Assembly (NCBI GenBank): GCA_009908845.1
Contig: JAAAOQ010000269.1
Span: 1-34,024 of the forward strand
DNA length: 34,024 nucleotides
Direction: 5' to 3'
From: Gammaproteobacteria bacterium
Lineage (GTDB): Bacteria; Pseudomonadota; Gammaproteobacteria; Chromatiales; Chromatiaceae
Below the pieces are notes generated by a model, which saw nothing but the letters and a program-made list of their open reading frames with translations, had not been told where the DNA came from and searched no databases. Of the stretch, positions 19,490-22,605 are shown piece after piece. Each line of letters starts with the position of its first letter. Position 1 is the first letter of the stretch. The translations under genes and the position numbers were made by a program.

Positions 19490-20200
19490 TCAGCCAGCGA
19501 TCGAACCGACCGCGGCGCTGTCAGCAAGAACCGTGCTGTTCGCCGCCGCGGCCACCTCAGCGACCGGCAGCGCCGCGCCATCCCTCCACTCGGTTAGCGC
19601 ATCGGCCTTACCTCCACCGGTCACCAGGATCAGCACCTGCCGGCTATCGGTCAGCGCCGCCGGTGTCAACGAGACCCGCTCGGGTGGCGGCTTCGGGGCT
19701 GCGTGAACCGGGATCGCCAATCGATCATCCGGGACATCCCGGCCTGGGAACAGGCTGGCGGTATGACCGTCCTCGCCCATCCCAAGCAACACCAGATCGA
19801 ACGGCAGCGCCGCACGAACGATGGATTCGTAGGCCCGCGCACCCGCCTCGGCACCCGCCTCCGCCGGAATCGCCATCACCTGCGACCGCGGCACCGGCAC
19901 CTGTCCCAGCCAGGCTCGCTCAATAGCCAAGCTGTTGCGTGCCGGATCATCGGCGGCGACACAGCGCTCGTCGCCAAAGTAGATCCACCAACGCCCCCAG
20001 TCCGCATCCGTGCCAGCAAGCCGTTCATAGGCCGCTGTCGGCGTGGTGCCGCCAGCCAAGCACAACCGGAATTGCCCTGCTCGAGCGATTGCAGCGCGAG
20101 CTGCGTCCATGATGGTCTCTGCCGTCGCGCGGGCCACGGCCGCTTGATCGTCGAACAGCCTGAGCTTGGCACCGGGCAGGTCAATGGTCTCGGGATTCAT
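19490..20200 (-). CDS. pgl: 6-phosphogluconolactonase
   Basis: It hydrolyses 6-phosphogluconolactone in the oxidative pentose phosphate pathway. The 236-aa protein is of the DevB type. It has the sugar-phosphate-binding motif LCLAGGTTPTAAYERL, IYFGDERCVAADDPARNS, and the signature DLVLLGMGEDGHTASLFPG with the catalytic His. RVSLTPAAL and LVTGGGKADAL complete the fold. GAGGG lies about nine bases before the ATG. No zwf or edd gene is adjacent, so it appears to be transcribed alone. It converges with the DUF2892 gene and diverges from the DsrC-like gene. Confidence 0.95.
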   Translation of the reverse strand: MNPETIDLPGAKLRLFDDQAAVARATAETIMDAARAAIARAGQFRLCLAGGTTPTAAYERLAGTDADWGRWWIYFGDERCVAADDPARNSLAIERAWLGQVPVPRSQVMAIPAEAGAEAGARAYESIVRAALPFDLVLLGMGEDGHTASLFPGRDVPDDRLAIPVHAAPKPPPERVSLTPAALTDSRQVLILVTGGGKADALTEWRDGAALPVAEVAAAANSTVLADSAAVGSIAG

Positions 20201-20449: not shown

Positions 20450-20812
20450 ATGCCAGAGACGATGCAGGACATCATGAATCCGGGGGCAGCGAGTCACGAT
20501 GACCGCTTCCCACATGCACCAAGCGACTGGACAGCGGAAGACGCGGAGCGAAGCGCCAGCGACGAAGGTCTGACAATGACCGACGATCACTGGGAGGTGA
20601 TCCGCTCGTTGCAAGCGTATTTTTTCGAGGGCGACGCGCATCCCAACACCCGCGTCTTGCACGACGCGCTGGACGAGCATTTCCACAGCCGCGGCGGCCT
20701 CAAGTACCTCTACGAGATCTTCCCGGGTGGCCCGGTTGCCCAGGGCTGCCGTCTCGCCGGCCTCAAACCACCTGCCGGTGCGGTCGATAGCTCATTCGGT
20801 AGCGTCAAGTAG
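20450..20812 (+). CDS. DsrC/TusE-family protein lacking the penultimate cysteine
   Basis: The 120-aa protein shows clear DsrC-family features. These are a DW motif, LTMTDDHWEVIRSLQAYFFE, a TRVLHDAL helix, KYLYEIFPGGP and the C-terminal arm GCRLAGLKPPAGAV. DsrC carries a sulfur-relay pair: CysB in the arm and CysA eleven residues later, next to last. Here CysB is present (C100) but the CysA position is Ala111, and eight extra residues follow (DSSFGSVK). It therefore cannot form the intramolecular trisulfide of DsrC, nor act as TusE, which uses CysA. Family members without the full pair have been proposed to be regulatory (RspA). GAGGAG lies eight bases before the ATG. No dsrAB or tus gene is adjacent. 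Confidence 0.9.
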   Translation: MPETMQDIMNPGAASHDDRFPHAPSDWTAEDAERSASDEGLTMTDDHWEVIRSLQAYFFEGDAHPNTRVLHDALDEHFHSRGGLKYLYEIFPGGPVAQGCRLAGLKPPAGAVDSSFGSVK

Positions 20813-21053: not shown

Positions 21054-22082
21054 ATGATCACTGCCGTGCTCGTCTGGGGTCAATTCGCACTTTGCGTCGT
21101 CGTGATCGCGATCGCCGGCGTCAAGCTCACCGAGTACGGAGACGCCATCGCCGACAAGACCGGGATGGGCGGCACCTGGGTCGGGCTCGTGCTCATCGCG
21201 ACCGTTACCTCATTGCCCGAGCTGGCCGCTGGCATCACCGCCTCGGCGGTGGCGCTGCTCCCGAACATCGCCGCCGGTGATGTGCTCGGCAGTTGTGTCT
21301 ACAACCTCGCCATCCTCGCGATACTCGACCTGTTCACCCGCAATCAACCGGTGCTGGCCTTGGCGCGTCGAGAGCATGTGCTGTCGGGCGGCTTTGGGCT
21401 GGTGCTGATCGGTCTTGCAGGGCTCGGGCTGATCGCCGGGCAGGCGGGCCTGTCCGGATTCTCGGACCAGGTCTCCTGGATCACACCGCTACTGATCATC
21501 GTCTACATCGTGGCGATCCGCAGCCTGCACCGCTTTCAGGAGCAGGAGATCGAGCAGTTTACCGAGGAGGAGCCGGACCGCTACGCCGAGCGCTCGCTGC
21601 GCGAGATCGGTACCCGCTACGCGATTGCGGCCGGGTTCGTGATCGCCGCGGGCATCTGGCTGCCTTATATTTCGGAAGATATCGCCGAGGTCATGGGGTG
21701 GGGCGAATCCTTTACCGGCACCCTGTTCACCGCGCTGAGCACCTCTTTGCCCGAGCTGGTGGTCACCCTGTCGGCACTGCGCATCGGCGCCATCGACATG
21801 GCAGTCGGCAACATCTTCGGCAGCAACATGTTCAACATCCTGGTGCTCGCGGTCGATGACCTCTTCTACCTGCCCGGACCGATCTATGCCGATCTCGCAC
21901 TGGGCCATCTCACCTCGGTGCTCGCTGCCATGACGATGACCGGTGCCGTGGTGGTCGCCCTCTATTTTCGCCCCCGGGTGCGCGTGCTGCGACTCGGCGG
22001 CTGGGTGAGCTTCTCGCTGATCGGCCTGTTCGCGCTCAATTCCTGGCTGATGTTCCACCTCGGAAACACACCGCATGGCTAA
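21054..22082 (+). CDS. Sodium/calcium exchanger family protein
   Basis: A 342-aa membrane antiporter of the Na+/Ca2+ exchanger superfamily (YrbG/CaxA-like). Two inverted alpha repeats are visible. The first is ATVTSLPELAAGITAS with GDVLGSCVYNLAILAI. The second is TALSTSLPELVVTLSALR with VGNIFGSNMFNILVLAV. Both keep the Glu of the TSLPE ion-binding motif; the first has Ser-Cys where Ser-Asn is commoner. About ten membrane helices are expected. A hydrophilic Glu-rich loop lies between halves (FQEQEIEQFTEEEPDRYAER), the usual place for the cytoplasmic loop. The ATG at 21054 has GGAG nine bases upstream; an upstream extension is polar and unlikely. The next gene overlaps its stop by eight bases, implying translational coupling. 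Confidence 0.9.
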   Translation: MITAVLVWGQFALCVVVIAIAGVKLTEYGDAIADKTGMGGTWVGLVLIATVTSLPELAAGITASAVALLPNIAAGDVLGSCVYNLAILAILDLFTRNQPVLALARREHVLSGGFGLVLIGLAGLGLIAGQAGLSGFSDQVSWITPLLIIVYIVAIRSLHRFQEQEIEQFTEEEPDRYAERSLREIGTRYAIAAGFVIAAGIWLPYISEDIAEVMGWGESFTGTLFTALSTSLPELVVTLSALRIGAIDMAVGNIFGSNMFNILVLAVDDLFYLPGPIYADLALGHLTSVLAAMTMTGAVVVALYFRPRVRVLRLGGWVSFSLIGLFALNSWLMFHLGNTPHG

Positions 22083-22605
22083 GCCGGCGAGCGTTCCAGG
22101 GCAAGACCAGGGCAGCAGCCCGACACCGCCCGCCGACGCCCACCTGGTGCACCAGACCAGTCGGCGGATGCGCCTCAAGGTGCCCTCGCGGCGTCACGAT
22201 ACCGCCTTCTTCGAGCGACTCGAGCAACAGCTGGCAGCCATTCCCGAGATCGAGGCGACGTTGATGACGCCGGCGACGGCAAGCGTGCTGCTGCGATTCG
22301 CCGAGGGCGAAGGCGACGGCGTTGCAGCGGCGGTCGATGCGCTCGAGGGCATCGCGCTCGCCAAGCCCGACGCGAATCGGGCTGCCTCGCCCAACGAGAC
22401 GGCCGCCAACGAGGCCGCCGAGCCATCGCTCCAGCAGGGAAATGCAAGCGGTCGCGTCGACCGCCGCGCACTGGCGTTTACGGTGCTGGTCCTCTTATTG
22501 CTGCGGCAACTCTTGCGCGGTGGCTGGCTCGCGCCGGGCCTCGCGTTGGTCTGGTTCCTGTTCGAGGTGCTGCGCGCGCGGATGCCTGAGGACGAGGCCC
22601 GTTAG
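22075..22605 (+). CDS. HMA-like domain protein with C-terminal membrane helices
   Basis: A 176-aa protein. The section HLVHQTSRRMRLKVPSRR, IPEIEATLMTPATASVLLRF resembles the degenerate heavy-metal-associated folds found in proteins with an HQxxxRxRLxxP signature. No CxxC metal site is seen, so metal binding is unproven. After an Ala/Asn/Glu-rich linker there are one or two hydrophobic segments (LAFTVLVLLLLRQLLR and LAPGLALVWFLFEVL) and a polar tail. The gene overlaps the exchanger by eight bases (ATG at 22075, exchanger stop at 22080-22082), so the products may work together in ion handling. The family assignment is tentative. Confidence 0.72.
   Translation: MAKPASVPGQDQGSSPTPPADAHLVHQTSRRMRLKVPSRRHDTAFFERLEQQLAAIPEIEATLMTPATASVLLRFAEGEGDGVAAAVDALEGIALAKPDANRAASPNETAANEAAEPSLQQGNASGRVDRRALAFTVLVLLLLRQLLRGGWLAPGLALVWFLFEVLRARMPEDEAR

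Follow-up and report, generated by a model that had tools for sequence, protein, structure and literature searches.

The window, a stretch of 34,024 nt from a purple sulfur bacterium, encodes a member of the DsrC superfamily that falls into a distinct clade, most members of which lack CysA. Within this known superfamily, the clade is a new and well-bounded variant: its members keep CysB, nearly always carry a small non-thiol residue in place of CysA, end in a conserved tail, and co-occur with reverse Dsr. We tentatively read them as a DsrC branch of accessory or regulatory docking partners and give this reading somewhat less than an even chance. The clade is one widespread group in sulfur-oxidising bacteria, and its function is putative. 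Several DsrC paralogs coexist in purple sulfur bacteria, and only DsrC itself is, to our knowledge, understood. No description of the clade was found in the open-licence PubMed Central literature, which does not imply its absence elsewhere.

The DsrC-like gene and its protein

The DsrC-like open reading frame (20450–20812, plus strand) starts with ATG, has a GAGGAG motif 8 bases 5' of the start and encodes 120 amino acids. The protein is a member of the DsrC superfamily, as it exceeded the curated cut-offs of both PF04358 (80.1 bits, cut-off 24.9) and TIGR03342 (74.7 bits, cut-off 53.5). Alignment with 13 canonical DsrC sequences showed that CysB and most of the arm are kept. The CysB position is occupied by C100 (TGC codon, 20747–20749, plus strand) and the CysA position by Ala111 (GCG codon, 20780–20782, plus strand), in agreement with an earlier sequence-only reading of this DNA. 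Nine residues, VDSSFGSVK (20783–20809, plus strand), follow Ala111 compared with one after CysA in DsrC, and the protein thus has an eight-residue extension. The eight-residue tail proposed earlier was therefore correct when counted from the usual DsrC end.

An AlphaFold2 model of the protein (pLDDT 82.7) was all helical, with the end of the tail predicted to be disordered (residues 117–120, pLDDT <50). The best Foldseek match of this model was A. vinosum DsrC (PDB 1yx3; E = 6.2e-4, TM 0.61), consistent with a predicted DsrC fold. The same structure was the best PDB match at the sequence level (E = 1.4e-16).

Several characteristics set the protein apart from DsrC proper: the absence of CysA, a C terminus that is eight residues longer and contains a conserved FG, and a separate position on the phylogenetic tree. 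The N-terminal DsrC segment and the lysine-rich patch are likewise not conserved in the clade. Several residues that are conserved in DsrC have been replaced (K69 to D72, K73 to E76, K95 to A97, R52 to Q55 and N81 to G83), and the mean net charge of the stretch 67–88 is −0.4 in the clade versus +5.8 in the 13 DsrC sequences. Escherichia coli TusE belongs to the same superfamily (TIGR03342) but shows the opposite pattern to the window protein, with CysA present and CysB absent. The window protein scored just 56.2 bits against the TusE model PRK11508 (cut-off 191) and has Ala111 where TusE has CysA. In line with the sequence-only reading, it is thus neither a DsrC with both cysteines nor a TusE with CysA, and the tree groups it with neither. 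A label such as "TusE/DsrC sulfur relay protein" should not be taken to mean sulfur relay.

The window's own genome contains nine PF04358 genes (L001–L009) with at least five different cysteine patterns. L001 is a canonical DsrC, L005 is a second two-cysteine protein, and L004 ends in CHSC. Unlike the window protein, which retains CysB, L002, L003, L007, L008, and L009 lack both cysteines. Phage DsrC-like proteins, too, can lack one cysteine. In one study (PMC8190135), 23 of 141 such proteins had both cysteines, 112 the second only, one the first only, and five neither; another describes a SUP05 phage DsrC that lost the second cysteine (PMC4164917). A single Cys-requiring pattern scan of IMG/VR viral contigs matched two stretches, neither of which was confirmed as a relative of the clade, and a phage origin was accordingly set aside.

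Conservation and phylogeny of the clade

We searched a clade profile (A2) that does not require the cysteine in 210 genomes of the order and 185 genomes of the class. As 39 of its 42 rows came from a Cys-requiring pattern scan, the profile is slightly biased towards Cys; its mean column identity was 61%. The searches separated the window clade (at least 124 bits) from the next set of sequences (at most 109 bits). Clade matches were found in 73 genomes in the order search and 17 in the class search, the latter including the window's own genome.

We read 88 clade sequences, the window protein among them, retrieved by profile searches without a cysteine requirement. Position 100 was Cys in 86 of them, Ser in one and Thr in one, while position 111 was Ala in 63, Ser in 20, Thr in three, Ile in one, Val in one, and Cys in none. 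The tail was similarly conserved (F116 in 85, G117 in 87, S118 in 82 and V119 in 82), with the consensus D-x-S/G-F-G-S-V. The arm stretch G-P-x-x-Q-G-C-x-x-A-G-L was intact, and the arm residues P92, G94, P95, G99, A103, G104, and P108 were invariant. The ortholog in one genome (L204, G038) ends after LDPS and lacks the FGSV end of the tail.

Two sequences within the clade score range were left out of the 88. One (L022) fits the clade pattern, with Cys100 and Ala111. The other is a second clade copy in genome G302 (L311, 124.4 bits), which has Thr100 and Cys111 and keeps the FG tail. It is the sole exception among the 90 clade sequences read; to say that CysA never occurs would therefore be inexact, and the FG tail does not exclude CysA. 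The cysteine pattern of L311 is the reverse of the window's, and its host genome has no dsrA match at E 1e-40.

The sequence-only reading would have been undone by a sequencing error at position 111 or by orthologs with CysA intact. An ortholog with Cys100 and Ala111 was found in seven of seven other genomes of the same genus, which excludes such an error, and among the 90 clade sequences read intact CysA was confined to L311. A related possibility, that the gene is a functionless decaying paralog or itself a sequence error, has only the absence of CysA in its favour. It is scarcely credible and was rejected, given that the pattern is common to 88 orthologs over many families and given the column identity of the profile.

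We sampled a wider set of relatives scoring at about 80–109 bits among the matches listed (58 chosen, 57 distinct after one duplicate). Both the F and the G of the tail were present in 55 of the 57, and Cys111 was present in none (two had no residue there). Position 100 was more variable: Cys in 22, Ser in 23, Leu in six, Met in four and Asn in two. As several other residues are thus tolerated at position 100, the tail is the more constant element of this wider set, whereas in the window clade neither the tail nor Cys100 varies much. L007 and L008 of the window's own genome belong here.

On a phylogenetic tree of 118 rows, comprising DsrC, E. coli TusE, and five other paralog groups besides the tail-bearing proteins, the 92 tail-bearing rows were split from all the rest with support of 99/88. 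The window clade (55 rows) was supported at 99/97. A core-only tree (residues 26–99, without CysB, the arm end, and the tail) kept both splits with SH-aLRT values of 93 and 100, obtained by a quick method from few columns. Two tail-less sequences of the wider set that had been omitted from both trees, L248 and L249, joined the tail-bearing side when added, with an SH-aLRT value of 94; presence or absence of the tail thus does not match the split exactly. They carry Asn in place of CysB, and their C termini read NRIANLVNK and NRIANLVKK. On this side of the tree, loss or gain of the tail may have taken place.

Reverse Dsr and gene neighbourhood

In the class sample, dsrA was detected in 16 of 17 genomes with the window clade versus 46 of 168 without it (Fisher p = 7e-8, not corrected for kinship and too small because the genomes are related to one another). 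In the order sample, the corresponding proportions were 70 of 73 and 116 of 137. Among 40 named genomes chosen from the best 80 of 160 relatives, dsrA was present in 28 and absent from 12, with completeness not given. Two genomes, G302 (90% complete) and G064 (94% complete), carry the clade gene and lack dsrA, and reverse Dsr is thus not required for the gene. The association is strong, not absolute. It supports the place in sulfur metabolism that had been suggested for the protein, in the form of a link to sulfur oxidation.

The divergent neighbour upstream of the gene is a 6-phosphogluconolactonase-like gene (19490–20200, minus strand, PF01182 match), which is the same in most loci of the genus. 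In the same-genus loci, the clade gene lies between this gene and a cbb3 oxidase cluster, which we take to be an inherited position. The window also contains a small gene (22075–22605, plus strand) with a weak match to a heavy-metal-associated domain (24.3 bits, cut-off 30), flanked by a Na/Ca exchanger gene and the cbb3 cluster. Named loci were taken as the best 80 of 160 relatives, found with a Cys-requiring pattern, and were kept out of the cysteine statistics. The closest named relative among them was a contig of Halochromatium glycolicum DSM 11080 (98% identical), which makes a Halochromatium-like member of the Chromatiaceae the probable host. No neighbour common to unrelated genomes was found in the flanks of these 80 loci. 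An operon-based function was therefore rejected, as no neighbour was shared beyond related genomes. In two loci (L116 and L135), clustering placed the neighbouring gene with the cbb3 copper ATPase, but on reading it was the start of a different P-type ATPase, and neither locus was counted. An alignment of eight loci revealed no convincing shared upstream site beyond the ribosome-binding region.

A two-domain TusA gene was found directly upstream in five of the 80 named loci (best 80 of 160), all from one betaproteobacterial lineage (L128, L130, L139, L143, and L144), and four of these also have a single-domain TusA gene immediately downstream. One of the clade copies in G302 has a TusA gene at a distance of about 1 kb. 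Overall, TusA was present in the fetched stretch of six of 108 loci scanned, some of which are the same place twice, and most loci had no sulfur gene nearby. At L130, a GCV_H-family gene next to the window-type gene may encode LbpA of the sHdr pathway or an ordinary GcvH. GCV_H-family matches occurred in 11 of 11 dsrA-less genomes and cannot tell LbpA from GcvH.

Candidate functions

The genome taken to be that of A. vinosum (G121) contains five PF04358 genes, at 28, 410, 855, 1443 and 1750 kb. Five have been published for A. vinosum: Alvin_0028, 0345, 0732, dsrC (1256), and 1508 (PMC3368242 and PMC11267869). From the order along the chromosome, we infer that the ortholog at 855 kb is Alvin_0732. 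On pyrite compared with sulfide, Alvin_0732 is up about 4-fold, dsrAB is down about 22-fold and dsrC is unchanged (PMC11267869). In A. vinosum DsrC, a persulfide forms only on Cys111, and Cys111 is needed for interaction with DsrEFH (PMC3397948). As both depend on a residue that is Ala here, the window protein can neither be persulfurated nor interact with DsrEFH in the manner of DsrC.

The accessory or regulatory reading, which we hold tentatively, draws on the near-constant F116 and G117, the near-constant Cys100, the invariant arm residues, the tree and the co-occurrence with dsrA. The TusA neighbours, the wider set with its constant tail and the opposite expression of Alvin_0732 and dsrAB on pyrite point the same way. 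According to this reading, the arm, including the intact stretch around C100, would still dock on a cytoplasmic sulfur-trafficking partner, candidates being TusA, DsrEFH/TusBCD, DsrAB or a heterodisulfide-reductase-like protein. The FG tail would take over from sulfur chemistry as a docking or locking element. C100, unable to form the intramolecular disulfide of DsrC, would be at most a redox- or persulfide-sensitive switch, and the protein would assist or regulate sulfur trafficking and not serve as a turnover carrier. The scarcity of TusA among the scanned loci, the 12 dsrA-less genomes among the 40 named ones and the retention of Cys111 alongside the tail in L311 count against this reading. 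A catalytic role could also explain why Cys100 hardly varies in the window clade.

In a competing explanation, the protein is a single-cysteine carrier whose C100 is loaded by TusA or DsrEFH with sulfur in persulfide form and passes it on. The mixed disulfide or persulfide on C100 suggested in the sequence-only reading may form. Conservation of Cys100 in the orthologs and the TusA genes adjoining the gene in the betaproteobacterial lineage and near one G302 copy speak for it. We nevertheless consider it doubtful, as 35 of the 57 same-tail relatives sampled among the matches listed have Ser, Leu, Met or Asn there instead of Cys, and as the one position at which A. vinosum DsrC carries its persulfide (PMC3397948) has been lost.

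DsrC has reportedly been found to bind DNA upstream of dsr. RspA is said to be a DsrC-like protein, named in a 2014 review and proposed to act as a regulator independently of CysA and CysB. The window protein could be an RspA-like regulator, as the sequence-only reading suggested, and would then act on sulfur genes by binding DNA. The published RspA group may include the window clade, whereas the conserved cysteines are not known to be needed in RspA and C100 is retained in 86 of the 88 sequences here. The opposite shifts of Alvin_0732 and dsrAB on pyrite (PMC11267869) agree with regulation. Against DNA binding stand the acidity of the protein (pI 4.79; clade median 5.13), the loss of positive charge in the stretch corresponding to the lysine-rich patch of DsrC, and the lack of a standout match to a DNA-binding fold, since all structural matches beyond two DsrC-family structures had E >1. 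These make direct regulation of this type rather unlikely.

The sequence-only reading had also proposed a decoy. As a competitor of DsrC, the protein would occupy DsrAB or DsrEFH without transferring sulfur. In keeping with that, the core and the arm of DsrC are conserved as far as position 110, and the clade co-occurs with dsrA. The proposal is weakened because the protein has lost the N-terminal segment and the lysine-rich patch and has gained a tail. K69, K73, K95, and R52, all conserved in DsrC, are switched as given above, and eight residues past the end of the DsrC arm should hinder the same insertion. We regard a decoy as improbable.

A broader form of the docking reading is more speculative, and we would put little weight on it: the tail-bearing proteins may constitute a functional branch of their own within the superfamily, in which a short FG docking tail has taken the place of the sulfur-carrying arm end and a sulfur carrier has become a thiol-sensitive gate. 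Such a gate would control how reverse Dsr and related pathways are supplied with sulfur by TusA or DsrEFH. With CysB fixed, CysA almost absent, and a tail added, the window clade offers a clean test of the roles of CysB and the arm apart from sulfur transfer. One ortholog lies in the presumed genome of A. vinosum, the organism in which the Dsr system has been studied by means of mutants (PMC3397948).
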